Source: Ischnura elegans (Eukaryota > Arthropoda > Insecta > Odonata > Coenagrionidae). Taken from it: a DNA stretch of 64,000 nt. Every line of letters begins with the position of its first letter. Positions within the stretch are counted from its first letter, which is position 1. The translations under genes and the position numbers were made by a program. Where the stretch lies: positions 75,288,866 through 75,352,865 of the forward strand of contig NC_060252.1 of NCBI RefSeq assembly GCF_921293095.1, written 5' to 3'. The notes beneath the pieces were generated by a model. The model did no database searches. It saw only the letters and a list, made by a program, of their open reading frames with translations, and was not told where the DNA came from. This document shows, piece by piece, positions 18,064 to 64,000 of this stretch.

Positions 18064-19897
18064 TGTAGTGTGCACACCCACACAAGGGCATTGTACAGGG
18101 ACAAGGAGGGAAAGATACTGGGAGATGATGACAAAATAGTAGAGAGATGGACAGAACATTTCTGCGACCTGTTGAATGATGAAGGGTTTGAGGAAGAGAG
18201 CGAGGTGCATGAATATCAAGAGGGAAATGGTGAGGACGCTATCGAAGAGCCTACGATGGAGGAAGTGGAAGCGGTTGTCGGGAAATTAAAAAATAATCGG
18301 TCACCTGGTGAAGATGAAATTGCCCCAGAACTTATTAAGAAAGGCGGAAATACGCTCATGAGATGCATGCATGAATTGATCAGAGACATTTGGAGACAGG
18401 AAATAATGCCTGTAAAATGGAGAACTGGCATTATATGTCCCATACACAAGAAAGGCGACAAAACGCTCTGCAATAATTACAGAGGAATTACGCTGTTGAG
18501 CATTGCATATAAAGTGCTCTCAGGAATTATACAAATGAGAGTTAGCAAAAGAGCTGAAGGCATCATTACCGAATATAAGGGTGGATTTCGACGAGATAGG
18601 GGCACAACAGACCAAATATTTACTTTGCGTCAAATGATGGAGAAGCACTTCGAGCACAACCAAGATTTACACTTACTGTTTGTAGATTTTGAGCAAGCGT
18701 TTGACAGTGTGAAGAGAAGCACACTGTATGCAGCACTAAACGAATTAGGCTTGCCTAAGAAGTTAATCAGACTGGTAAGGATGACAATGCAGGAAACCAT
18801 AGCTAAGGGTAAAGTCGGCAATAAAATGGGTAGTGCTTTTCCATTTAATATGGGAGTAAAGCAAGGAGATGGCTTGTCTGCAACATTGTTAATATTGGCC
18901 TTGCACTGGGCAGTAAGGGGAGTTGACACTGGTGGAACAATATTCTATCGGAGCAGTCAAATACTGGCGTATGCAGATGATATAGTCATTGTAGCCAGAT
19001 CTGCAAGGAAGTTGAAAGGAATATTTGGCTCACTAAAGGAAAGCGCAGGAAGACTTGGACTGAAAGTTAACTGAGGCAAAACAAAATACATGTGTATGTC
19101 CACATCTGAAACTCGCAGACGACCTCAGACATTAGATATCGACGGAGATAAATTTGAGGGTGTCTCATCCTTTAAATATCTTGGGGCATTGGTGACATCG
19201 GATAACTCATCAGTGCTTGCATAAAAGACAGAATCACCGCTGGTAACAGAGCGTACTTCGCAAATCATAGGGAGATAAATTTGAGGGTGTCTCATCCTTT
19301 AAATATCTTGGGGCATTGGTGACATCGGATAACTCATCAGTGCTTGCATAAAAGACAGAATCACCGCTGGTAACAGAGCGTACTTCGCAAATCATAAACT
19401 GTTGAAAAGTAGACTGATAAGAAGAAATACTAAATATAAAGTATATAAAACTTTAATAAGACCTGTTGTCACTTATGGATGTGAATGCTGGATGTTATCA
19501 ACAGCAGAGGCGCACGCACTTAGATGTTTCGAGAGAAGGATCCTAAGGAAAATTTATGGACCCATACAAGAGTTTTTCGAAGACGATGGAATGAAGAACT
19601 TGACGACCTCATAGAGGGCCAAGACATTGTGAGATTTATCAAGTCACAGAGACTCAGATGGATGGGACATTTGATAAGAATGTCAGAGGAGAGAGTGGCC
19701 AAAAGAGTTTGGGAGGGAAAATTATTCAGCATAAAAGGAAGAGGACGTCCACGCCTAAAATGGCAAGATGGAGTGGAAGCAGATCTGGCTACTTTGGGGA
19801 TAAGAGGATGGAGAAATAAGGCCATTAAGAGGGAAGAATGGAGGAAGATTGTATTGAAGGCCAAAGCTGACAAAAAGCTGTAGCGCCAAGGAAGGAA
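18064..19897 (+). pseudogene. RTE-type LINE reverse transcriptase, copy 1
   Basis: A long frame from 18064 carries the RT domain: NYRGITLLS, GGFRRDRGTTDQIF, FVDFEQAFDSV (motif A), GVKQGDGLSATLL (motif B) and AYADDIVIVA (catalytic YADD). It stops at 19072 and resumes in other frames, with the thumb and the C-terminal RRILRKIYGP and RRWNEELDDLI... RWMGHLIRMSE segments to AKADKKL at 19880. The endonuclease half is missing, so the copy is 5'-truncated. The 3' end is CTGTAGCGCCAAGGAAGG followed by AAGG repeats, matching the 3' end of the copy at 32401-34235. A 127-bp internal duplication shifts the frame. Confidence 0.88.
19144..19397 (+). repeat. 127-bp tandem duplication inside the RTE LINE
   Basis: 19144-19270 is repeated almost base for base at 19271-19397. 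Because 127 is not a multiple of three it breaks the frame. The near identity suggests a recent slippage or unequal exchange event, later than the insertion. Confidence 0.93.
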
Positions 19898-24261: not shown

Positions 24262-25215
24262 TCATAGTACTTGAAAAGGCGGAATGGAGAACAAAAGAAA
24301 TGAATGACAACTGCCGAAGACCTTCGTGCACCTGTGTGTTGGGTGGTCGAAACCCTGACACCTGCGGCATTGGGCGGTTTGGCAGCGTGGCGGATGGGAG
24401 TGCTCAACCATGAACCGTTTGCCAAAGGCAATAAGTTCATCGTGTAGGAGCCGCTGCGCCGTGTCTGCGTCCCTCGTGATGACCCTCATCAAGGTGATTG
24501 GTTGGCAGGTCCATCTGGCGGTGATCCTCATCACCCGGATACAGCGAAGACCGGCGAAGCTCAGTGCCTCCTTGATGTCCGCCTCCGTGGTCGTCCTATC
24601 TACGCCGCGCACCACAACTGAACAGGAGGGAAGAGAGGGGCGGTTAGTTGGTGCCGGCAGAGCGGTCGAGCGCCGTAAGAATGCGGATCTCGACTCGCCC
24701 AGCCGGTGGCTCAGCTTCTTAATCTTCTCCGCATTCTCGAAGAGACCGCCATACGCCGCTGGGATGCGGAGCATGGCGAGTTTCTCTTGCAAGAATACGG
24801 AGACTTCTGCCGTACGGAGAAAAGCGAAGGTTAAGGTCAATGCGGAGAAGATGGATTTTTGGGTTACGGATGCGGGAAGGTTGCTAATAAACACCGAAGA
24901 GTCATTGGTAGGTGGTTTGGAGGCGGCAGAGGTCGAAGGAGTCGGGTATCGTTAGGGTGATAGCTCGGTGTCAGACGCTGTGTCGTATTGATAGGAGGCG
25001 TCTGATTCTGCTGCTGACGTGGATGGAACGGGGCTTGGCTACGACGGCGAGGCAGGAACGGGGTTGGCGGGCTTGTCGGGCTGCTTGTTGACCACTCCGG
25101 TCACGACGACTTTCTTCTTCCTCCGGACTTTCAGCCAAGACACGCCATCATAAGGGTCCTTAGACGCCTCATTCCGGTCGTGCTCCGAACTACTCATCAT
25201 AGTCGTCCTTCCTTC
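24262..25215 (-). pseudogene. LINE ORF1 (gag-like) with CCHC knuckle, minus strand
   Basis: On the minus strand an N-terminal piece begins at a methionine near 25212 with charged, Lys-rich sequence (VRRKKKVVVTGVV). After frameshifts the frame at 24894-24262 carries an RRM-like fold (SVVVRGVDRTTTEADIKEAL, VMRITARW, MRVITRDADTAQRLL) and a zinc knuckle CRRCQGFDHPTHRC. This is the usual ORF1 architecture of Jockey-superfamily LINEs: RNA-binding chaperone forming the retrotransposition RNP. The remaining knuckles are cut off where the plus-strand LINE begins its 3' end, about 20 bp away, so the two inserted tail to tail. Confidence 0.8.
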
Positions 25216-29759: not shown

Positions 29760-29867
29760 CTTAAAAAACATATAAACCAGCGTATAAATACAAACGGAGA
29801 GCAATTATTATTTTAGTTTTCCTTGATTAGTTAACTGTTGCTACTAGTCTAGTCTACAGAGCGGGGG

Positions 29868-30252
29868 GTGATAGGAGGGGAGGGGAGGGCGATAGGAGGG
29901 AAGGGGGTGATAGAAGAGGATGGGAGGGTGATAGGAGGGGATGGGAGGGTGATAGGAGGGGATGGGAGGGTGATAGGAGGGGATGGGAGGGTGATAGGAG
30001 GGGATGGGAGGGTGATAAGAGAGGGGAGGTTGATGGGAGGGGAGGGTGTTAGGAGGGGAGGTTGTTAGGAGGGGAGGGTGTTAGGAGGGGAGGGTGTTAG
30101 GAGGGGAGGGGATGGTGATGGGAGGGGATGGTGATGGGAGGGGATGGCGATGGGAGGGGATGGCGATGGGAGGGGATGGCGATGGGAGGGGATGGTGATG
30201 GGAGGGGATGGTGATGGGAGGGGATGGTGATGGGAGGGGATGGTGATGGGAG
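29868..30252. repeat. G-rich minisatellite
   Basis: The block begins with units of about 20-21 bases built on GGAGGGTGATAGGAGGGGAT and shifts to 15-16 base units of GGAGGGGATGGTGATG/GGAGGGGATGGCGATG. Strand composition is extreme (purine on plus). Open frames in both directions are low-complexity shadows. G-run spacing would permit G-quadruplexes. Confidence 0.93.
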
Positions 30253-30299
30253 GGTCGTAAGGAACATGAACAGTGCTACGAATATGAAGGGTGTGGTTA

Positions 30300-50788: not shown

Positions 50789-53563
50789 CAGTGGTTCCCA
50801 ACCGGTGTGCCGCGGCACTAAGGGGTGCCGTGAGATCTTTTGAGGGTGCCGCCAAAATTTCGGGGAAAAAATTGCACGAACGTCATTCTCTCTTGGCGGG
50901 AGAGGGGGAGGGAGGGAGGGGACTACCGAGATAGCGGAGTCCTTCTCCAACCCACCTCACCCCACCCGTTCCTCAGTGAGGGTTGTGGATTGACGCGTAT
51001 AACACACGTACAGGACAGGGCGCACAGCGAGTCGCCAGTCGCCACTCGCCAGCATGGCTCAGTACTGATTGGTGACTCAAAGGAGGCAGAAGGTATTGTA
51101 TTAAGCAGCACGTGCACGAGTGCACGTAAATTTGTGATCAAGTGCAATCCTTGTGATAAGCTAAAACTGTGTTTGTCGCTCTCTACTTAACTATCAGAAA
51201 CTAATTTAAGCCTCTGTGATTTTTTCCTTTTTTTTCAGAATACATCTTATCTGACAGCGTCGAAAAAGAAGGATGGATAAGTTCGTAGTGAGGAAGCGAA
51301 AAGTACAGGCGGATGAATCTCCAGACCAAATGGTGGCTTCCAGTATTGGTACTGCTTCGAAGTCAAACACTGAAGGTGTTCCTGCTCCATCTGAATCAAA
51401 TTGCGAAAAGGGGAAACACGCATCTCTCTCGAAGAAAAGGACATATATTGATGCCTATTTAGCATATGGTTTTACTTCAAAAAATGATGAAGATAATCCG
51501 CGTCCTGTGTGTTTAGTTTGTGGAGCTACACTCAGCAATGAAGCCATGGTACCTAGTAAGCTCAAGCGGCACCTCAATAGCAAACACCCTTTTGTGTCAC
51601 AGAAGGGCATGGCATATTTTTCTCGTATGTTAGAAGGGAAAAGTAAGGCGGCTAATAAAATGGTCAAGAAGGTAACAGTAGCTGACACTGCTCTTGAAGC
51701 TTCCTTCAGAGTAGCAGAGCTGATAGCAAAGAAAATGAAGCCTCATACAACTGGTGAAGAAATCATTGGCCCTGCATGCAACATAATTGTAGAAACAATG
51801 CTTGGCAAAGAAGCTCAGGAACAGATTTCGAAAGTACCTCTTTCCAACAACACAATCAGCCGTAAGATATCTGAAATGTCAACAGATATTAATGAAGAAG
51901 TAGTGAAGCAGATAAAATCGAAAAGAAAATTCGCATTGCAGGTAGATGAGAGTACTGACATTGCTGGAAAATGCCAACTGCTTGGGTTTTGCAAATTCAT
52001 TGACAAGGATATTGTGGAACAGTTTATGTTTTGCAAAGAGTTACAGACTACAACTACTGGAGAGGATATCTTTGCATCTGTAAATTCGTACCTCACTGAA
52101 CATGGTCTTTCATGGAATTACTGTTGTGGCATATGTACTGGTGGTGCACCGTCGATGATAGGGAAGTACAAAGGCTTCATCACCAGGGCATTGAAAGAAA
52201 ATCCATCTATAACTACAACTCACTGCTTCCTACACAGAGAGGCTTTAGTAGCCAAGACGTGTGGAGAAGAGTTAACTGAGGTTTTAAACCAGGCTGTCAA
52301 GATGGTTAATTTAATCAAATCCAGGCCACTGCAAAATAGAGTTTTTCAAAAGATGTGTCAAGAAATGGGTGCGAATCATATTTCACAGATTTTGCATACT
52401 GACATAAGGTGGTTATCAAGAGGTCGTGTACTGAACCGCGTTCTTGAACTCAAAGAAGAATTAAAAGCGTTTTTCCGAGAGGAGAGGCATGATATATTCA
52501 TAAAGCTGCTTGAAAATCATACTTGGTGTTTGAAGCTGTCATATTTGGCAGACATTTTCATGAAGCTGAATGAACTAAATCTCTCAATGCAAGGAAGACT
52601 TGAGGGAATTGTAACATCAGTTAACAAGATGAAAGGTTTCCAGAGAAAGCTGAAATCATGGAAGTCGGCTGTTCAGAGAGACGATGTGTCAAACTTCCCT
52701 TCTCTTCAACAAGCAGGATATAACGGCTTTGGAACTGTAAAAAATCTGATTCTTAATCACTTGGAACAGCTGAGAGAAGCAGTTGATAAGTATTTTCCAT
52801 CGCTGTCTACAGAAAAACTAGAATGGATTGTATCACCCTTCGAACTGGCTGACATGGCTGAAGAGCTGGACTTCACGGCAATAGAACGTGACGAATTTCT
52901 TGATATGTCTGCTGATTCAACACTGAAAGTCAAATTTGAGAAGAGTGACATGACACTGGCAGCTTTTTGGCATGCAACATTGGGGAAATACCCTAATTTG
53001 GGTCAGAAAGCTATTTCTCTACTTTTGCCCTTCTCCACATCGTATCTGTGAGAGCAGGCATTTTCTGCCATGGCTACAACAAAATCGAAACAAAGAAATA
53101 GGCTTCTTTCACTTGAGGACGATATGCGGGTGGCATTGTCAACAATAAGACCTGATATCAAGAGTTTGTGTTCCAAGCATCAATCACAAGTTTCACACTG
53201 AGTATACATGCATGGTGCACTGTGGTCTATTTGTGTTTTTGTCTTGTATCATAGTGTAACACTGTAACTACTTGAATACATTGTGCAACTACAGTAAAAC
53301 TTGTCACAATTACATATTTGTATCGTAATACTATTTATTTATTAAGGCAGAATCAATGTAAGCAGTATTCTCATATCATCTAGGACTATTGTTGTTGTTA
53401 TCAACTAGGACTGTTGCATGCAAACTCTTGAAATGAAACAAATAAATAAATAATAATAAAAAAATTACGGAGATTTTAAATATCTATTTCCTTATAAGGG
53501 TGCCGGGAACTTTTGAAAGGCTTTCCAAGGGTGCCTCAAACAAGAAAAAGTTGGGAACCACTG
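50789..53563 (+). mobile_element. Buster-type hAT element, nearly intact
   Basis: The termini are CAGTGGTTCCCAAC and GTTGGGAACCACTG, perfect 14-bp inverted repeats, with further GGTGCCG words repeated near both ends. The flanks are ATCTAGGA (50781-50788) and ATCTAAGA (53564-53571), an 8-bp duplication with one change, matching the nnnTAnnn preference of the Buster family. The element is 2775 bp and carries one long transposase frame. Its removal restores the P-type transposase frame. Confidence 0.95.
51273..53201 (+). pseudogene. hAT (Buster/ZBED-type) transposase with a single late nonsense codon
   Basis: 592 codons are open from ATG at 51273 to TGA at 53049-53051; the same frame continues to a natural-looking stop at 53199-53201, giving 642 codons. 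A BED zinc finger lies at C80, C83, H100 and H105 (CLVCG...KLKRHLNSKH). The catalytic core starts with FALQVDESTDIAG (first D), continues through GICTGGAPSM and THCFLHREALVAK, and the insertion domain carries DIRWLSRG and VLELKEELKAFF. After the stop come EQAFSAMATTKSKQRNRL and DDMRVAL, the hAT C-terminal dimerisation region. The stop replaces the cysteine codon before EQAFS, so one base change may account for inactivation. It resembles SCAND3/ZBED5-like proteins. An ATG-proximal leader of about 480 bp lies inside the element. Confidence 0.92.
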
Positions 53564-54681
53564 ATCTAAGATCATTTAGTTTAGGATTATATTTCTTGAG
53601 CCCTAAGGCCTATTCTTTTGTGAGGTATTTTTTGCCATTGGTATCACCGAGGACTATTCGGAGAATTCTGAGTGGCCTTCCTGGGACTACAGGATTATCG
53701 GACTGGATTCTTAAAAACATTGAAGTCCAGGTCACTGTTTTGGGTAATTCAAGTCAAGATTGCATAATTTGTATGGATGAAGTGACATTAAAGCCTCACT
53801 TGTTTTATAATATAAGCAAGGATGAAGTGGTAGGACATTTGTGGACATAGGAGATGGGAGGAGAAGTTCTACAACTTCAAATGCAGCTTTTGTTGTAATG
53901 GTTAGGGGCAGCACTGTTAATTGGAAGCAGGCCATTGGCTATTTTTTTGTAAAGGAGTCTTGCCCAGCTCTTGGCATTAAAGGTATCATATTTGATGCCA
54001 TCAGGAAGTTGACTGGCTTGGGGTTGAAGGTGCATGGTGTTGTATCTGACCAGGGATCTAACTTCCAACAGTAAGCTAGAATTTTAGGTGTCACTCCAAC
54101 CAGACCATATTTCAATGTTGATGACAAAGTTGTTAACTATATATTTGATGTACCTCACCTTCTGAAATCGATTAGAAATAACTTGATCAATCATAAATTT
54201 TACTTTGATGGTCATGTTGCATGTTGGGATGATGTAGAGGCACTGTACAATGCAGATAAGCAGCAAAGTTTAAGATTGGCAGTTAAGTTGAGTGACGCAA
54301 TGATAAACCCCAACAACTTCATGAAAATGAAGGTGAAGTATGCTGCCAAAGCATTGAGCCATACAGTTGCTGCTGCACTAGAGACTCATGCTCGCTTGGG
54401 CACATTGCCTGCATCTGCTTTGAGGACTGCAAAATTCTGCCATACATTTGATAAGCTCTTTGACTGCTTAAATAGCTCCTCCCTGGAGTAAAAAAATGCT
54501 CATCGAGGGACAGCGGCAAGGAGGCGAGCGTACCGTCGACGACCCGCGTCAAGGAGAGAGGACAACACCCGCCAAGGAGGTTCCGTCCGAGGAAGCGCTT
54601 GCCGCAACCGAGGACAGCCGCCAAGGCGTGCCAAGGAGGGAGAGTCCCTCTCAGGGCTAACCCACCTACCACCAATCTCCA

Positions 54682-55230
54682 TTGCTTAAGGTCCTTTTAA
54701 GGGCCTACACAGTCGATCCGACCGACTAACCTTCTTCCACAGGGGACAAGAGCAAGGACCGACCGAGGAAGGAGGACAACACCGCCACCAAGGGAAACCG
54801 CCTGAGGAAGCGCTAGTCGCGACCGAAGGCTACGAGCCAAGGACCGGACAGGGAAGGAAGACCACCAGCCTAAGGACCAGACTAGGAAGGAAGGAAGTCC
54901 ACCACCAGGAGGAGGGAGGCAGTCTATTCTCCTTTGCTTAAGGTCCTTTTAAGGGCCTATACGGTCGGTCCGACCGACTAACCTTCTTCCACAGGGGACA
55001 AGAGCCAGGACTGACCAAGGAGGACAACACCGCCACCAAGGGAAACCGCCTGAGGAAGCGCTAGTCGCGACCGAAGGCTAGGAGCCAAGGACCGGACCAG
55101 GAAGGAAGACCACCAACCTAAGGACCGGACCAGGAAGGAAGGAAGGCCACCACCAGGAGGAGGGAGTCACCACCAGCCTATTCTCCTCGGCTACTTGGTC
55201 CTCTTCGGGGCCATTTTCTCTCCTGTCTCT
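54682..55230 (+). repeat. 252-bp leader repeats, two copies and a partial third
   Basis: TTGCTTAAGGTCCTTTTAAG begins copies at 54682 and 54934; a third, diverged start lies near 55185. Each copy has CCGACCGACTAACCTTC, then CTTCCACAGGGGACAAGAGC (which looks like a 3' splice site) and a purine-rich GGAAGGAAG tract. A GTCGGT-CCG-ACCGAC hairpin occurs in the second copy. Repeated leader units of this sort act as promoters or enhancers in some LINEs; that role is inferred. Confidence 0.85.
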
Positions 55231-55849
55231 TTTAGGCCAGTGCAAGGAACTTTCTGCGGGCCCTACGGGTAACCCAAAGTTTGCACCCTTGTGACTGCAG
55301 GGGCATTCCCCCGCCCGGGGGAACTAGTATCTGCCCAAGCGAAGTCTGCAAGTGGAGAGGGTTCGGTCCTCCAATCGCCGGCTGGTACACGCAAAACCTC
55401 TCATTCGACCTACCCCGACGCACTCGTTGGCCATAGGGTGAGAGTCCCCATTTCCTGAAGCTTGCACGCTAACGCACTCGTTAGCAGCTGACGGACCACC
55501 CCTTCACAAACATTAACGGCGCCCACGTAACGTGCGGTGGGTTCTCCAGCCGTGGGGCAGCGATCATCGTTGGGGCTTTTCTGCTTGTCTGCGGGCAAGT
55601 AGTCCAATAGGCACACTGGGGTAGGGGGGACAACACATCGCTAGGCGGCCCTCCCCCGTCAGGGGGGGACCTGACACCAGGGCCTTCAGCCACCAAAGCG
55701 AAAAGGACCCAAAGAGGGCCTTTTACGGACTTCTCTTGAAAACTCTTCGAATCTAAGCGCGCTCTCAGAAGAGGATCATCGTAAGGGAGTTGGCATAAGA
55801 GCCTCTCTCCAACAGTAAGTCTGCGGTTAGTTCGCTAGTTTGCTCTTGG
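55231..55849 (+). other. GC-rich structured leader block
   Basis: Several strong stems are visible, including an 8-bp palindrome TTCCCCCG-CC-CGGGGGAA at 55306-55323 and two CGCACTCGTT words at 55420 and 55472. A GCATAAGAGCC hairpin lies at 55793-55803 and a GTAAGT donor-like site at 55815-55820. Minus-strand frames here are compositional shadows. No coding role is evident; it may be a folded 5' UTR. Confidence 0.45.
55793..55803 (+). promoter_or_regulatory. ATAAGA-loop hairpin 1 (left of the array)
   Basis: GGC-ATAAGA-GCC, with a looser outer GGAG/CTCC pairing. Same loop as the three hairpins right of the array. Confidence 0.5.
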
Positions 55850-58800
55850 ACTTCATTTAACTTCTCTTCCGGACTTAGTCAATTTTTGAAACTTGGGCAA
55901 TTATCTTATTTTACTTCACTTTTGGACTTAGTCACTTCGGCCTTCGTCAACACTTAGCTTCATTTAACTTCTCTTCCGGACTTAGTCAATTTTCAAACTT
56001 CATTGGCACTTAGTTTATTTCTTCTCTTCCGGACTTAGTCAATTTCGAACTTGGGCACTTAGTTTATTTTACTTCACTTTTGGACTTAGTCACTTCGGCC
56101 TTCGTCAACACTTAGCTTCATTTAACTTCTCTTCCGGACTTAGTCAATTTTCAAACTTCATTGGCACTTAGTTTATTTCTTCTCTTCCGGACTTAGTCAA
56201 TTTCCGAACCTTGGTCACATAGTTTATTTTACTCCACTTTTGGACTTAGTCACTTCGGCCTTCGTCAACACTTAGCTTCATTTAACTTCTCTTCCGGACT
56301 TAGTCAATTTTCAAACTTCATTGGCACTTAGTTTATTTCTTCTCTTCCGGACTTAGTCAATTTCCGAACCTTGGTCACTTAGTTTATTTTACTCCACTTT
56401 TGGACTTAGTCACTTCGGCCTTCGTCAACACTTAGCTTCATTTAACTTCTCTTCCGGACTTAGTCAATTTTCAAACTTCATTGGCACTTAGTTTATTTCT
56501 TCTCTTCCGGACTTAGTCAATTTTCGAAACTTGGGCACTTAGTCACTTTACTTAGTCACTTCGGCCTTCGTCAACACTTAGCTTCATTTAACTTCTCTTC
56601 CGGACTTAGTCAATCTTCAAACTTCATTGGCACTTAGTTTATTTCTTCTCTTCCGGACTTAGTCAATTTTTGAAACTTGGGCACTTATCTTATTTTACTT
56701 CACTTTTGGACTTAGTCACTTCGGCCTTCGTCAACACTTAGCTTCATTTAACTTCTCTTCCGGACTTAGTCAATTTTCAAACTTCATTGGCACTTAGTTT
56801 ATTTCTTCTCTTCCGGACTTAGTCAATTTCCGAACCTTGGTCACTTAGTTTATTTTACTCCACTTTTGGACTTAGTCACTTCGGCCTTCGTCAACACTTA
56901 GCTTCATTTAACTTCTCTTCCGGACTTAGTCAATTTTCAAACTTCATTGGCACTTAGTTTATTTCTTCTCTTCCGGACTTAGTCAATTCTCGAACCTTGG
57001 TCACTTAGTTTATTTTACTACACTTTTGGACTTAGTCACTTCGGCCTTCGTCAATAATTAGCCTCATTTAACTTCTCTTCCGGACCTAGTCAACTTCCGA
57101 ACTTGGGCACTTAGTCTATTTTACTTCATTTAGTCACTTCGGCCTTCGTCAGCCCTTAGCTTCATTTAACTTCTCTTCCGGACTTAGTCAATTTTCAAAC
57201 TTCATTGGCACTTAGTTTATTTCTTCTCTTCCGGACTTAGTCAATTTCCGAACCTTGGTCACTTAGTTTATTTTACTCCACTTTTGGACTTAGTCACTTC
57301 GGCCTTCGTCAACACTTAGCTTCATTTAACTTCTCTTCCGGACTTAGTCAATTTTCAAACTTCATTGGCACTTAGTTTATTTCTTCTCTTCCGGACTTAG
57401 TCAATTTTCGAAACTTGGGCACTTAGTTTATTTTACTTAGTCACTTCGGCCTTCGTCAACACTTAGCTTCATTTAACTTCTCTTCCGGACTTAGTCAATC
57501 TTCAAACTTCATTGGCACTTAGTTTATTTCTTCTCTTCCGGACTTAGTCAATTTTTGAAACTTGGGCACTTATCTTATTTTACTTCACTTTTGGACTTAG
57601 TCACTTCGGCCTTCGTCAACACTTAGCTTCATTTAACTTCTCTTCCGGACTTAGTCAATTTTCAAACTTCATTGGCACTTAGTTTATTTCTTCTCTTCCG
57701 GACTTAGTCAATTTCCGAACCTTGGTCACTTAGTTTATTTTACTCCACTTTTGGACTTAGTCACTTCGGCCTTCGTCAACACTTAGCTTCATTTAACTTC
57801 TCTTCCGGACTTAGTCAATTTTCAAACTTCATTGGCACTTAGTTTATTTCTTCTCTTCCGGACTTAGTCAATTTCGAACTTGGGCACTTAGTTTATTTTA
57901 CTTCACTTTTGGACTTAGTCACTTCGGCCTTCGTCAACACTTAGCTTCATTTAACTTCTCTTCCGGACTTAGTCAATTTTCAAACTTCATTGGCACTTAG
58001 TTTATTTCTTCTCTTCCGGACTTAGTCAATTTCCGAACCTTGGTCACTTAGTTTATTTTACTCCACTTTTGGACTTAGTCACTTCGGCCTTCGTCAACAC
58101 TTAGCTTCATTTAACTTCTCTTCCGGACTTAGTCAATTTTCAAACTTCATTGGCACTTAGTTTATTTCTTCTCTTCCGGACTTAGTCAATTTCCGAACCT
58201 TGGTCACTTAGTTTATTTTACTCCACTTTTGGACTTAGTCACTTCGGCCTTCGTCAACACTTAGCTTCATTTAACTTCTCTTCCGGACTTAGTCAATTTT
58301 CAAACTTCATTGGCACTTAGTTTATTTCTTCTCTTCCGGACTTAGTCAATTTTCGAAACTTGGGCACTTAGTCACTTTACTTAGTCACTTCGGCCTTCGT
58401 CAACACTTAGCTTCATTTAACTTCTCTTCCGGACTTAGTCAATCTTCAAACTTCATTGGCACTTAGTTTATTTCTTCTCTTCCGGACTTAGTCAATTTTT
58501 GAAACTTGGGCACTTATCTTATTTTACTTCACTTTTGGACTTAGTCACTTCGGCCTTCGTCAACACTTAGCTTCATTTAACTTCTCTTCCGGACTTAGTC
58601 AATTTTCAAACTTCATTGGCACTTAGTTTATTTCTTCTCTTCCGGACTTAGTCAATTTCCGAACCTTGGTCACTTAGTTTATTTTACTCCACTTTTGGAC
58701 TTAGTCACTTCGGCCTTCGTCAACACTTAGCTTCATTTAACTTCTCTTCCGGACTTAGTCAATTTTCAAACTTCATTGGCACTTAGTTTATTTCTTCTCT

Positions 58801-61715
58801 TCCGGACTTAGTCAATTCTCGAACCTTGGTCACTTAGTTTATTTTACTACACTTTTGGACTTAGTCACTTCGGCCTTCGTCAATAATTAGCCTCATTTAA
58901 CTTCTCTTCCGGACCTAGTCAACTTCCGAACTTGGGCACTTAGTCTATTTTACTTCATTTAGTCACTTCGGCCTTCGTCAGCCCTTAGCTTCATTTAACT
59001 TCTCTTCCGGACTTAGTCAATTTTCAAACTTCATTGGCACTTAGTTTATTTCTTCTCTTCCGGACTTAGTCAATTTCCGAACCTTGGTCACTTAGTTTAT
59101 TTTACTCCACTTTTGGACTTAGTCACTTCGGCCTTCGTCAACACTTAGCTTCATTTAACTTCTCTTCCGGACTTAGTCAATTTTCAAACTTCATTGGCAC
59201 TTAGTTTATTTCTTCTCTTCCGGACTTAGTCAATTTTCGAAACTTGGGCACTTAGTTTATTTTACTTAGTCACTTCGGCCTTCGTCAACACTTAGCTTCA
59301 TTTAACTTCTCTTCCGGACTTAGTCAATCTTCAAACTTCATTGGCACTTAGTTTATTTCTTCTCTTCCGGACTTAGTCAATTTTTGAAACTTGGGCACTT
59401 ATCTTATTTTACTTCACTTTTGGACTTAGTCACTTCGGCCTTCGTCAACACTTAGCTTCATTTAACTTCTCTTCCGGACTTAGTCAATTTTCAAACTTCA
59501 TTGGCACTTAGTTTATTTCTTCTCTTCCGGACTTAGTCAATTTCCGAACCTTGGTCACTTAGTTTATTTTACTCCACTTTTGGACTTAGTCACTTCGGCC
59601 TTCGTCAACACTTAGCTTCATTTAACTTCTCTTCCGGACTTAGTCAATTTTCAAACTTCATTGGCACTTAGTTTATTTCTTCTCTTCCGGACTTAGTCAA
59701 TTTCGAACTTGGGCACTTAGTTTATTTTACTTCACTTTTGGACTTAGTCACTTCGGCCTTCGTCAACACTTAGCTTCATTTAACTTCTCTTCCGGACTTA
59801 GTCAATTTTCAAACTTCATTGGCACTTAGTTTATTTCTTCTCTTCCGGACTTAGTCAATTTCCGAACCTTGGTCACTTAGTTTATTTTACTCCACTTTTG
59901 GACTTAGTCACTTCGGCCTTCGTCAACACTTAGCTTCATTTAACTTCTCTTCCGGACTTAGTCAATTTTCAAACTTCATTGGCACTTAGTTTATTTCTTC
60001 TCTTCCGGACTTAGTCAATTTCCGAACCTTGGTCACTTAGTTTATTTTACTCCACTTTTGGACTTAGTCACTTCGGCCTTCGTCAACACTTAGCTTCATT
60101 TAACTTCTCTTCCGGACTTAGTCAATTTTCAAACTTCATTGGCACTTAGTTTATTTCTTCTCTTCCGGACTTAGTCAATTTTCGAAACTTGGGCATTTAG
60201 TTTATTTTACTTAGTCACTTCGGCCTTCGTCAACACTTAGCTTCATTTAACTTCTCTTCCGGACTTAGTCAATCTTCAAACTTCATTGGCACTTAGTTTA
60301 TTTCTTCTCTTCCGGACTTAGTCAATTTTTGAAACTTGGGCACTTATCTTATTTTACTTCACTTTTGGACTTAGTCACTTCGGCCTTCGTCAACACTTAG
60401 CTTCATTTAACTTCTCTTCCGGACTTAGTCAATTTTCAAACTTCATTGGCACTTAGTTTATTTCTTCTCTTCCGGACTTAGTCAATTTCCGAACCTTGGT
60501 CACTTAGTTTATTTTACTCCACTTTTGGACTTAGTCACTTCGGCCTTCGTCAACACTTAGCTTCATTTAACTTCTCTTCCGGACTTAGTCAATTTTCAAA
60601 CTTCATTGGCACTTAGTTTATTTCTTCTCTTCCGGACTTAGTCAATTCTCGAACCTTGGTCACTTAGTTTATTTTACTACACTTTTGGACTTAGTCACTT
60701 CGGCCTTCGTCAATAATTAGCCTCATTTAACTTCTCTTCCGGACCTAGTCAACTTCCGAACTTGGGCACTTAGTCTATTTTACTTCATTTAGTCACTTCG
60801 GCCTTCGTCAGCCCTTAGCTTCATTTAACTTCTCTTCCGGACTTAGTCAATTTTCAAACTTCATTGGCACTTAGTTTATTTCTTCTCTTCCGGACTTAGT
60901 CAATTCTCGAACCTTGGTCACTTAGTTTATTTTACTCCACTTTTGGACTTAGTCACTTCGGCCTTCGTCAACACTTAGCTTCATTTAACTTCTCTTCCGG
61001 ACTTAGTCAATTTTCAAACTTCATTGGCACTTAGTTTATTTCTTCTCTTCCGGACTTAGTCAATTTTCGAAACTTGGGCACTTAGTTTATTTTACTTAGT
61101 CACTTCGGCCTTCGTCAACACTTAGCTTCATTTAACTTCTCTTCCGGACTTAGTCAATCTTCAAACTTCATTGGCACTTAGTTTATTTCTTCTCTTCCGG
61201 ACTTAGTCAATTTTTGAAACTTGGGCACTTATCTTATTTTACTTCACTTTTGGACTTAGTCACTTCGGCCTTCGTCAACACTTAGCTTCATTTAACTTCT
61301 CTTCCGGACTTAGTCAATTTTCAAACTTCATTGGCACTTAGTTTATTTCTTCTCTTCCGGACTTAGTCAATTTCCGAACCTTGGTCACTTAGTTTATTTT
61401 ACTCCACTTTTGGACTTAGTCACTTCGGCCTTCGTCAACACTTAGCTTCATTTAACTTCTCTTCCGGACTTAGTCAATTTTCAAACTTCATTGGCACTTA
61501 GTTTATTTCTTCTCTTCCGGACTTAGTCAATTCTCGAACCTTGGTCACTTAGTTTATTTTACTACACTTTTGGACTTAGTCACTTCGGCCTTCGTCAATA
61601 ATTAGCCTCATTTAACTTCTCTTCCGGACCTAGTCAACTTCCGAACTTGGGCACTTAGTCTATTTTACTTCATTTAGTCACTTCGGCCTTCGTCAGCCCT
61701 TAGCTTCATTTAACC
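55850..61715 (+). repeat. satellite-like array with a 12-unit higher-order repeat of ~1830 bp
   Basis: The basic unit is about 160 bp and ends with CTTCGGCCTTCGTCA; I located 38 occurrences between 55935 and 61681. Their spacing follows a fixed order: 160,147,160,160,158,160,160,146,160,160,160,98. That order occurs completely at 57137-58966 and 58966-60796 (1829 and 1830 bp), with its last eight steps before 57137 and a six-step shortened version at the end. Within each unit GGACTTAGTCA recurs about three times, indicating an older sub-unit of about 50 bp. The array has no ORFs. Confidence 0.95.
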
Positions 61716-62133
61716 TCTTCTTAGACTTTGAAACTTTCCAACTTCATTTAGCCTCTACTACTACCTGCACTAGCGAACTAAGTACTCCGCAAGGTTAATA
61801 CCGAAAGGCATAAGAGCCTTTGACGGTTAAGTGTACCGGGCATAAGAGCCCACAGCGCTCCCCAACTGGTTAGGGCGAAAGGGGTATAAGAGCCCCTTTC
61901 CTATCATCTAATCCAACACCAGCCAATTGTTCATTGCTCACTCCATTTAGTTCCACCCCAAACTTTATTCAACCTTTCATTCTACATGTAACAACACTCT
62001 TAGTGCATTAGCTTCTATCTATAACTACAGTCTTGCTACCATATTCACACCGTTTCATCCTTGACTTTACTTAAAGCAACGCACTTGGCGACTTGTTGAT
62101 AGAAAACTTCACTCTACCAATTAATTAAATCAC
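61716..62133 (+). other. right flank of the array, leader of ORF1
   Basis: Diverged array sequence gives way to unique leader. It holds three ATAAGA-loop hairpins between 61805 and 61900. No ORF precedes 62134. Confidence 0.5.
61805..61900 (+). promoter_or_regulatory. ATAAGA-loop hairpins 2-4
   Basis: Three stems close the same six-base loop with different base pairs: AAAGGC/GCCTTT at about 61805, GGGC/GCCC at about 61839, and GAAAGGGG(T)/(G)CCCCTTTC at about 61878. The change of stem sequence with preserved pairing argues for RNA structure. Function unknown: packaging, translation or processing signals are all possible. Confidence 0.55.
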
Positions 62134-63791
62134 TTGTCTACGTACCACAGCAACTTGCTTTTAACTTCACTTGTTCATTTCGTGTCCTCTTTAAAAGTAG
62201 CACTGTATCTACTAGCCGCGTCACGGCGACCGCCATCAAAAGAACCGCCTATCGGCCACTTGCCTAGGACTGCCCCGCCTCCCGGGGACCAGACACCGAC
62301 AACGGGCCTGGGCAAGCCTAGGGATGGACCGACTCCATCGCCCAAACTCCCGCATCCGCCGCCCAAGCTCCCTATGCTCCCTACGGTGTTATGCCCTGAG
62401 GTCGCACGGGCCACCACCCTTCTTATCGACCCTTGTGTCGCCCAGCGTGCCCCCGGATGGCAAAGGTGTCTCTAAAGGGGCGAAGCCGTCTGCCTCGCCA
62501 CTGCCGGATTCGCCTGACTCCCCGGGCTCAAGCGTGCCGTCAGCGCGAGTGAGTCGGGATGCACCCCTTGATGATGCTGCCTCGCCCTCTGCGCAGGACA
62601 TCACTCCCCCCCGTGCTGCAATGTCTTCCCTTTCGCCATTCCAGGACAACTCCATGAGGTTGCTCACCTCCCCTAGGTCCGCCTTTGTCCCAATCAACCC
62701 TGCGGCTACCTCAACCCCATCCTCGGTGCTTACTATGGTTCGCGCCACTCCAGCCAACCCCACTTCCGTGAACCCGAGCAACACCGTCCGCCTTAATACA
62801 ACAAGGCCTCCATACGGGGACCCAGCACGCCCCCCACCTACTACCACCTGCCCCCCCCGAGAGACCAACCCTCACCTCACCTCAACCTACCCAGCAACCT
62901 AGAAGAACCTCCCCCCTCCAAATTTCGGGCCTCCCTAGAAGCTGCAGTCAGCGCGGGTTTTCCCAAGCCTGGCGAGCGGTTTTCCCGGGACTCAGCCAAG
63001 TCTCTGGAATAGTAAATACAGACAGAGGCACAGCCGTGGTACATGTAACGACCACGGAGATGGACTTCCTCAGGCGCGGATACCGCCTCCTAGACCACCG
63101 CCTGGGGGAGCCGCTCCGATGGCATTTCCCCCCCGACAGCAGGAATCGTCCACCCTCCGAATCGCCTACTAATGATCGTGCCCGCACATGCTTTGTTGTG
63201 TGCGGAGTTCATTTCTCCACCAGGGTGGAAGTTATCGGCCGGAAGCTGGAGAGGATGGGCATCCGGTTCGTCGAGGCATGGAGGATAACTGACTACAGAT
63301 ACCGGAGAACGAAGTACATCCGGGTCCTCCTCCGAGACACACAGGCAGCACAGGACGTTATCGATAAGATGTGCAGGACTGGACTTTGGCTGGGCAATCG
63401 CTGGTATCGGTGCGAGCCGCCCCGCCCAGTCTCCAGGGAGTTTTACGGAGAGGAGAGACGCCCCCATCGCGACCAGCGGCCCCCGTCGCCAATGGCCGCC
63501 CCTTCCCACGCCCCGACGCCGGCACGCCCCCAGCGTCAGACGGCGGAGCGTGAAGACACACCTAATCTCCCCGACCCTTTCTCTGACCTTTTACAGGTTC
63601 CGGAGACCGACACGTCCAGACCGGCTACAACAAACGACGTAGTACGGTTCTTCGCCAGGGTGGTCAAGGAGACGTCACCATCAAGAGACGGGGGAGCACT
63701 GGCAGCCATCATCCGCACGGCAGCTAGAGAGGTCTTCGGATGGGACAGAGACGACGCGAGCTACGCCAACATTCTATCCCGCAATGGATAA
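62134..63791 (+). pseudogene. LINE ORF1: Pro/Ser-rich N-terminus and RRM-like domain
   Basis: Three overlapping frames (62134-62475, 62324-62902 and 62901-63791) are each coding-like in turn, so ORF1 is probably one gene with two indels; a C8 run near 62851 is a likely place for the second. The N-terminal part is low-complexity Pro/Ser. The C-terminal frame (251 codons from the ATG at 63036, but open upstream to about 62770) has TEMDFLRRGYRLLDHRLGEP and an RRM-like fold: TCFVVCGVHFSTRVEVIGRK, FVEAWRITDYRY, YIRVLLRDTQAAQDVI. No CCHC knuckles follow. It would coat the LINE RNA. Sequencing error is an alternative to real frameshifts. Confidence 0.7.
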
Positions 63792-64000
63792 GTCCCAACC
63801 TAGAGTGTCGTTCCTCAACATCAACGGGGCAGTGACCCAGAAACGGGCGCTGCTCCGGGAACACCTACGGAGCAGGAAGGTCGCCATCATGGGACTGGTG
63901 GAGACCTTCCTCAAACCCTCCGCTAAAATAAAGATCTCTGGCTTCCAGGAATTCTCCGTGCCGAGGGCCCAACCACGATCCGGCGGGGTCGCCCTTCTGA
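63784..64000 (+). CDS. LINE ORF2 N-terminus: AP-type endonuclease, cut by window end
   Basis: The ATG at 63784 overlaps the ORF1 end by eight bases (ATGGATAA), a typical reinitiation arrangement in two-ORF LINEs. The frame is open to the window end (72 codons): VSFLNINGAVTQKRALLREH, VAIMGLVETFL (the E of the catalytic site) and then RSGGVALL. This is the first third of an endonuclease/exonuclease/phosphatase fold that nicks target DNA for priming. It is intact as far as it can be read, suggesting a young insertion. Clade cannot be decided without the RT. Confidence 0.85.
   Translation, partial: MDKSQPRVSFLNINGAVTQKRALLREHLRSRKVAIMGLVETFLKPSAKIKISGFQEFSVPRAQPRSGGVALL

Follow-up and report, generated by a model that had tools for sequence, protein, structure and literature searches.

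The window analysed here is a 64,000-nucleotide stretch of Ischnura elegans DNA (contig NC_060252.1; positions are counted from its first letter), towards the end of which lies a tandem array with a higher-order period. An earlier note on this sequence had placed the array in what appeared to be the leader of a long interspersed nuclear element (LINE). That placement is upheld, as the array lies inside one insertion flanked by a target-site duplication and the same flanking sequences recur at 14 loci of the genome. The array is an internal leader part common to this LINE family, and its higher-order expansion is seen in this copy only. Judged from sequence, it is probably a regular, length-variable internal tandem segment in the 5' leader of a LINE of about 13 kb, where it would act as an expandable, start-codon-free spacer.

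A three-level tandem repeat in the LINE leader

55854..61711, strand +: array of 39 units of 98-160 bp, with sub-units of about 53 bp and a 12-unit order of 1829/1830 bp
57132..58960, strand +: first complete period, 1829 bp (anchor register)
58961..60790, strand +: second complete period, 1830 bp (anchor register)

All 39 occurrences of the anchor AGTCACTTCGGCCTTCGTCA in the window fall within 55930-61676. Its spacings are 158,160,160,146,160,160,160,98 in the first stretch, which is a partial period; 160,147,160,160,158,160,160,146,160,160,160,98 in the first complete period; 160,147,160,160,158,160,160,147,160,160,160,98 in the second; and 160,147,160,160,160,98 in the final short stretch. 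The 12-unit order and the unit lengths described in the earlier note are exactly those given by the 39 anchors. Its period of 1829-1830 bp has the right lengths (1829, then 1830), but there are just two complete 12-unit periods, preceded by a partial period of 8 units and followed by a 6-unit version of 885 bp. The two full periods are the same but for one unit.

Cut from 55854-61711, the 39 units yield 12 distinct strings, the twelfth of which (H') is the 98-bp unit H, longer by 5 bases because of where the cut falls. Their order, with semicolons between stretches, is A B C D E F D G H; D I F D B D D E F D G H; D I F D B D D J F D G H; K I F D G H', the final 6-unit version being without B D D E F D. 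Identical units stand 12 apart in 21 of 27 pairs (the last unit scored as H), against 1/26 at lag 13 and 2/28 at lag 11, and the half period is also prominent (16/33 identical at lag 6). Periods are therefore more alike than units, as in a higher-order satellite. The strong divergence among the units of one period that such satellites have was not found: full-length units inside one period are about 95% alike, D differing from F at 8 and from G at 6 of 160 positions, so divergence inside the period is small. In the alpha satellite of centromeres, units within a period are far more diverged. As the 160-bp unit itself consists of about three 53-bp units, the repeat has three levels (53 bp, 160 bp and 1829 bp).

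Three longer unit cores had no occurrence elsewhere in the window. An open reading frame (ORF) inside the array was ruled out, the longest stop-free stretch being 61 codons. Rfam gave no match at gathering score over the whole window and none with E up to 1 over 54400-62400, a further copy of the LINE (C19) and a sister element (C7:79.44 Mb), and a transfer RNA scan also returned none. Among IMG/VR sequences, no relatives were found for a piece of the first ORF of the LINE (ORF1) or for a 25-mer of the unit.

One insertion and its relatives in the genome

54486..54498, strand +: 5' copy of the target-site duplication, 13 bp, GAGTAAAAAAATG; its final G is possibly part of the element
54498..55199, strand +: 5' part of the LINE, one truncated and two complete G+C-rich monomers of 248-252 bp
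55200..55853, strand +: left leader, present at 14 loci of this LINE; its first 533 nt also in a sister LINE subfamily
61712..62323, strand +: right leader; sole ATG at 61986, reading ATGTAA (stop directly after start)
62324..63791, strand +: ORF1 region, start ATGGACCGACTC at 62324
63784..64000, strand +: start of ORF2, open for 991 codons, past the window end; endonuclease and reverse transcriptase
67212-67224 (window-equivalent), strand +: 3' copy of the target-site duplication, GAGTAAAAAAATG, in downstream genome sequence

The 5'-to-3' order is thus 248-252-bp monomers, left leader, array, right leader and ORF1. In the downstream genome sequence the LINE runs on past the window end, with its ORF2 open for 991 codons. 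A single LINE insertion of about 12.7 kb extends from 54498 to about 67211 (window-equivalent), where the element ends after a TTGAC-type tail. It disrupts a P-like transposase: 54075-54488 matches TNP-like_GBD (1.4e-22), and beyond the 3' end of the LINE the transposase resumes (MYRSAITVDSPHVKFLQDA... / MYRSAITVDSPHVKFLQDALIFINGIK...), MYRSAITVDSPHVKFLQDA being read as the continuation of the same gene. With a target-site duplication on both sides and a disrupted host, the insertion has clear bounds, and as 55854-61711 lies within them the array is inside one LINE insertion.

ORF1 of this copy has no single open frame, and 490 codons are open in copies C79 and C46 (copies are named by contig label, with the Mb position after the colon). 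The 991-amino-acid (aa) ORF2 product matches RVT_1 (2.3e-37) and Exo_endo_phos_2 (1.1e-13) and so combines endonuclease and reverse transcriptase, as in an endonuclease-type LINE. Its nearest solved structure is LINE-1 ORF2p (1.6e-24); the endonuclease start alone gave a chance match only against solved structures. RNase H had no match in a domain search of the 991 aa, and this, together with a QYADDTALW motif, we take to be compatible with the Jockey clade.

The genome searched comprises 1.72 Gb and contains the window as C7:75288866-75352865. Searched with the right leader, it yielded 21 matches, spread over 14 loci with this copy among them; the left leader yielded 29 matches, which take in all 14 right-leader loci. 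Left leader, interval and right leader follow in the same order at 14/14 right-leader loci, and ORF1 sequence, at least partial, lies downstream at 13 of these (none in the examined stretch of C8). Counts refer to leader-bearing loci, ORF1 or ORF2 copies without a leader being left out.

With its right end taken as the projected start of the first block of the right leader, the interval is 5869 bp in this copy. It is 78 (C7:57.7), 396 (C1), 504 (C8), 598 (C2:142.7) and 665 bp (C12:71.8) in short copies; 808 (C3), 1108 (C11), 1185 (C46) and 1241 bp (C12:91.2) in mid-sized ones; and 1494 (C34), 1545 (C79) and 3099 bp (C19) in longer ones. That of C2:85.8, taken from match coordinates, is about 2.3 kb, of which 1.5 kb of sequence was examined. 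Repeat number between the same flanks hence varies from 78 bp to 5.9 kb, as in a variable number tandem repeat (VNTR) of a retrotransposon untranslated region (UTR). GGACYTAGTC marks of the unit number at least 3 per interval at 12/14 loci, 1 in C7:57.7 and 0 in C1, which has the most diverged left leader and a degenerate, pyrimidine-rich interval. No copy but this one showed the 1829-bp order. In C19 (14.18 Mb), a copy with a foreign insert, the array is interrupted by two stretches lacking unit marks, about 1.8 and 0.6 kb long. For C1, slower evolution of the left leader than of the coding sequence was considered and rejected, as ORF1 is 82-84% alike piece by piece and the left leader 80%; an ORF1 figure of 63-64% is an artefact of one forced alignment over interrupted pieces.

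An exact 25-mer of the unit occurs at 64 places in the genome, 58 in this array and 6 at four other LINE loci. A 22-mer with up to 2 mismatches occurs at 110 places; among the matches listed (100), all are within these LINE loci. The earlier note had called the array satellite-grade, but neither search revealed a free-standing array of the unit (100 of the 110 22-mer places being listed), so that the long free-standing arrays at several loci that mark a true satellite are absent among the matches listed. The converse arrangement, a LINE without an array upstream, was not found among copies with both leader flanks, as none of the 14 loci lacks an interval (shortest 78 bp; C1 degenerate). Since the same leaders bracket the interval at 14 loci and the unit is confined there, the array is an internal leader part and not a neighbouring satellite.

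The alternative raised in that note, an array of promoter monomers, fares no better. The array starts about 1.35-1.36 kb inside this copy, whose 5' end is truncated, and copies C12:71.8, C19, C11, C8 and C12:91 carry extra sequence further upstream. With a leader of about 1.35 kb and separate 250-bp monomers before it, the array is not a 5'-terminal promoter array. The 250-bp monomers of the 5' end are likelier promoter monomers than the big array.

Changes in array length can be followed in copies C79, C46 and C34, the left leaders of which are 99.8-100% alike. Their arrays differ by one large gap in each comparison: 308 bp between C34 and C46 (4 mismatches in 1230), 52 bp between C34 and C79 (1 mismatch in 1539) and 360 bp between C79 and C46 (3 mismatches in 1229). 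Two steps, of 52 and 308 bp, account for all three. A periodicity of 178 bp is found in C79 and C34. C34 and C46 are also 98.8% alike over 1.5 kb upstream of the left leader, about 0.9 kb of which is host sequence not common to C79, and 99.5% alike over 1152 bp more, after which there is no match. A shared host flank of about 2 kb indicates that they are one insertion, duplicated or allelic, whose array changed in length after insertion; C34 has a gap in ORF1 and C46 does not. Near-identical sister arrays one 52- or 308-bp step apart make amplification at the DNA level likely, and we infer that the 1829-bp order is the same stepwise process carried further, after insertion.

Outside the 14 loci there are 15 left-leader matches, two of which were examined (C7:79.44 Mb and C8:8.51 Mb). 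Both of these sister elements have the same 250-bp monomers (95%) and the left leader up to position 533 (90-94%). The slot of the array holds a different tandem array of 146-148-bp units (1.9 and 4.5 units), rich in GGCATCAGCGCC and GGCATAAGAGCC hairpins, and downstream of it is a LINE with ORF2 only 75-77% alike in DNA. Nine further left-leader matches also end at 533-538. That the 5' modules are shared while the coding parts have diverged suggests either constraint on the leader or exchange of these modules. Copy C12:91 (91.2 Mb) has an ORF1 of the C3 group (99%) and 5' monomers like those of this copy (97%); C79, C46 and C34 are without these monomers, save for a 73-bp match. In C12:91, exchange of 5' modules between LINE lineages looks real, on these likenesses.

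Start codons, arms and hairpins of the leader, and neighbouring sequence

The leader, 7.8 kb in length, contains one AUG before ORF1, that at 61986, and the next ATG, at 62324, is the start of ORF1 itself. Its unique parts have 1 ATG against 7.7 expected (1/2000 shuffles as low). By part, there are 0 ATG in the left leader against 3.3 expected (16/1000 shuffles), 1 in the right leader against 3.8 (76/1000) and 0 in the array against 10.7 (0/200 shuffles gave 0). The two sister leaders have 1 against 6.8 (3/1000) and 1 against 11.6 (0/1000), the count ending where ORF1 begins; for the first sister that point was set by likeness only. Control regions gave 20 against 13.6 expected in ORF1, 37 against 40.3 in ORF2 and 7 against 8.8 in the 3' region. 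The interval is without ATG at 13/14 loci (in C2:85.8 over 1.5 kb), and that of C19, with its insert, has 39. In substitution tests, the left leader gained 3 ATG against 8.1 expected and the array 0 against 0.7 expected, an expectation too low to give the test any power for the array. The 13 right-leader pieces contain 12 ATGs, 8 of which are directly followed by TAA or TAG, several by common descent.

55783..55813, strand +: predicted RNA hairpin with ATAAGA loop and 3-bp inner stem, left of the array
55822..55839, strand +: left complementary arm, TGCGG-TTAGTTCGCTAGT
61769..61791, strand +: right complementary arm, ACTAGCGAACTAA ... CCGCA
61804..61821, strand +: predicted hairpin AAAGGC-ATAAGA-GCCTTT
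61838..61851, strand +: predicted hairpin GGGC-ATAAGA-GCCC
61877..61900, strand +: predicted hairpin, 9-bp stem around ATAAGA

The arms TTAGTTCGCTAGT and ACTAGCGAACTAA bracket the array and form an exact inverted match of 13 bp (0/300 shuffles of the 200-nt flanks gave more than 11), with TGCGG and CCGCA standing behind a 5-nt offset. Pairing over 9-13 positions is found in 12 of the 13 loci with both arms examined, this copy included, and involves G-U pairs in 7 of the 12. The arms pair over 13 positions here and in C12:71.8 (one G-U), C19, C2, C11 and C8; over 12 in C7:57.7; and over 9, with one or two G-U, in C3, C79, C46, C34 and C12:91. A fold predicted for the flanks with nothing between them has the arms paired. 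In C3 and C12:91, the block of right arm and hairpins is repeated within the array.

Three ATAAGA hairpins with a stem of at least 4 bp, and a fourth with a 3-bp inner stem, are carried by the array flanks; in 1000 shuffled flanks, no hexamer loop occurred three times with a 4-bp stem. Covariation was assessed in 54 distinct hairpin hits from all copies and the two sisters, some of them outside leaders. Outer position 2 is paired in 78% against 49% and outer position 3 in 54% against 32% (each 0/1000 shuffles); the corresponding values are 3/1000 for positions 1, 4 and 6 and 90/1000 for position 5. The AUAAGA hairpin (AUCAGC in the sister) is a candidate that could bind a protein. The array itself is weakly structured (z +1.15; 19/20 shuffles fold at least as well), and the 5' monomers (54498-55199) fold better than shuffles (z -2.08, 0/20).

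Elsewhere in the window, 51273-53051 is an open hAT-like reading of 592 codons (BED zinc finger, DUF4371), the Pfam matches of which lie below curated cut-offs. A G-rich minisatellite of GGGAGGGTGAT-type with units of 16-21 bp, possibly forming G-quadruplexes, occupies 29859-30254. There is a perfect 127-bp tandem duplication at 19144-19396, just downstream of a reverse-transcriptase reading (18070-19074). A possible remnant of another LINE ORF1, on the minus strand at 24262-24894, has weak likeness to ORF1 of the present element (32% over 118 aa; E 9e-05 in a single comparison).

Explanations for the array and comparison with known systems

An expandable spacer could have arisen in a few steps. 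The first would have been multiplication of the 53-bp unit within the LINE lineage. Trimers, a block of 6 units (885 bp) and in the end the 12-unit period found here may then have arisen at the DNA level through unequal exchange or replication slippage, either after insertion or in a source copy without other known descendants. Its presence in retrotransposed copies suggests that the array is transcribed, and the range of the interval from 78 bp to 5.9 kb suggests that its length is tolerated. On the RNA, it would serve as a spacer between leader modules that bear hairpins: rich in pyrimidines, weakly structured, free of start codons and perhaps closed off by the complementary arms. An array of any length may be tolerated because it would offer no AUG to scanning ribosomes.

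Several observations weigh against parts of this scheme. Depletion of ATG is uneven (the 5' monomers have 0 against 0.7 expected, with 449/1000 shuffles as low), and its absence from the array itself may be a matter of composition. The arms are lost in C1, where only 6 positions pair, and with an artificial 30-A loop between the flanks they are unpaired in the predicted fold, which speaks against strongly favoured pairing. An exceptionally stable fold of the left leader, also considered, was not supported (z -0.90, 3/20 shuffles). As to origin, the 1829-bp order may predate the insertion, in a source copy absent from the assembly, and C34 and C46, whose shared flank is about 2 kb only, may not be alleles but two copies of some larger repeat.

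A more specific role on the RNA is possible, if rather doubtful: a functional loop, in which the arms close the array and the ribosome or reverse transcriptase is shunted past it, or a platform for RNA-binding proteins. It would account for the exact 13-bp arms around the array and their pairing, kept with G-U changes at 12/13 loci, for recurrent AUAAGA/AUCAGC hairpins with paralogous covariation, for a one-AUG leader in which 8/12 right-leader ATGs directly precede TAA or TAG, and for the other array in the same slot of the sister LINE. The loss of the arms in C1, their behaviour with the artificial loop and the unexceptional fold of the left leader count against this role too, and the arm counts are not independent, since the copies share ancestry. 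A tentative extension, of similarly low probability and likewise drawn from sequence comparison, is that the LINE lineage keeps a dedicated array slot as a working RNA part, filled by unrelated, nearly AUG-free arrays beside AUAAGA-type hairpins. Sister subfamilies would then fill the slot with either 53-bp pyrimidine-rich or 147-bp hairpin units, the array would be either a multivalent platform for proteins or a closed loop bypassed by ribosomes, and it would ordinarily change by higher-order growth.

Other explanations are less probable than the spacer proposed here. The unit carries a repeated CTTCCGG core, presumably ETS-like, which would suit an extreme array of promoter or enhancer monomers whose length is kept because more monomers give more transcription. 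Tandem monomers of the mouse L1 5' UTR act as promoters, one promoter having 50 (PMC6454616, PMC9022269). Such a role is unlikely, as the array is internal and not at the very 5' terminus (in this copy about 1.35 kb of leader come before it, in others more), separate 250-bp monomers already occupy the 5' end, copy C7:57.7 has just about 78 bp and two sister copies have another array in the slot. It is still less likely that the array is an intron, skipped in the mature mRNA and retained in the unspliced RNA that transposes, even though a GTAAGT (55815-55820) just left of it is present in 11/11 aligned copies reaching the site and pyrimidine tracts followed by TTAG or CTAG occur in the array and to its right (right edge CTGCACTAG or CTCTACTAG in most copies). 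The GTAAGT corresponds to left-leader positions 616-621, where 0/29 left-leader matches end (they end at 435-538 or 635-654, or are short, 10-109), so no spliced retrocopy is seen. False expansion in assembly might be suggested by the near identity of the two full periods, and is very improbable: the window contains no N, the periods carry distinguishing variants (C, E/J, K and the absent block) and other copies have independent blockwise changes. That a free satellite came to lie beside the LINE by chance, or was seeded elsewhere, would explain the higher-order unit order and high homogeneity, but is scarcely credible for an array inside the insertion, with the same flanks at 14 loci and no outside match among those listed (100 of 110).

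The array matters in three respects. It is a three-level higher-order repeat formed inside a LINE copy with known boundaries. Its sister arrays, one 52- or 308-bp step apart, make the steps by which higher-order repeats originate directly readable. The 7.8-kb one-AUG leader, with its bracketing arms and recurrent hairpins, makes the question of ORF1 translation testable.

In open-access titles and abstracts (subscription journals and repeat databases aside), no higher-order repeat in a LINE leader was described, and the nearest known systems each share part of the arrangement. In mouse L1 (L1Md), the number of 5' UTR monomers varies between copies, with extremes to 50 (PMC6454616, PMC9022269); as here, tandem monomers stand in a LINE leader in variable number. 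The mouse monomers, as described in these reports, lie at the 5' end, separated from ORF1 by a tether, whereas the present array stands further inside, after other monomers and the shared left leader, and a fixed higher-order period is not among the features described there. The telomeric fungal LINEs FoTeR and MoTeR offer a second comparison: FoTeR VNTRs are concentrated upstream of the reverse-transcriptase ORF, with active expansion and contraction suggested (PMC12857005). According to that account, VNTRs cover 425-1395 bp in FoTeRs (PMC12857005), against 5.9 kb for a single motif, with an ordered period, in the present array. The present LINE differs further in possessing ORF1 and an endonuclease domain of Exo_endo_phos type.

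Repeats in the 3' UTR of Ogre, a long terminal repeat (LTR) retrotransposon, are reported to seed satellites in Lathyrus (PMC7004042). Ogre and this LINE both have an expanding array in a retrotransposon untranslated region, but the Ogre arrays of that report became long satellites, whereas this one stays in the element, with none free among the matches listed. Hebe, a rotifer LINE of the jockey clade, has a 72-bp 3' UTR repeat in 1 to 4 copies (PMC2861651) and thus also a UTR tandem-repeat number that varies between copies; by the published description its repeat is short and in the 3' UTR, the 5' UTR being 220 bp (PMC2861651). Tandem repeats of variable number are a known feature of retrotransposon untranslated regions, and the array belongs with them; what is unusual is its ordered expansion, seen in one copy, and the leader that carries it.

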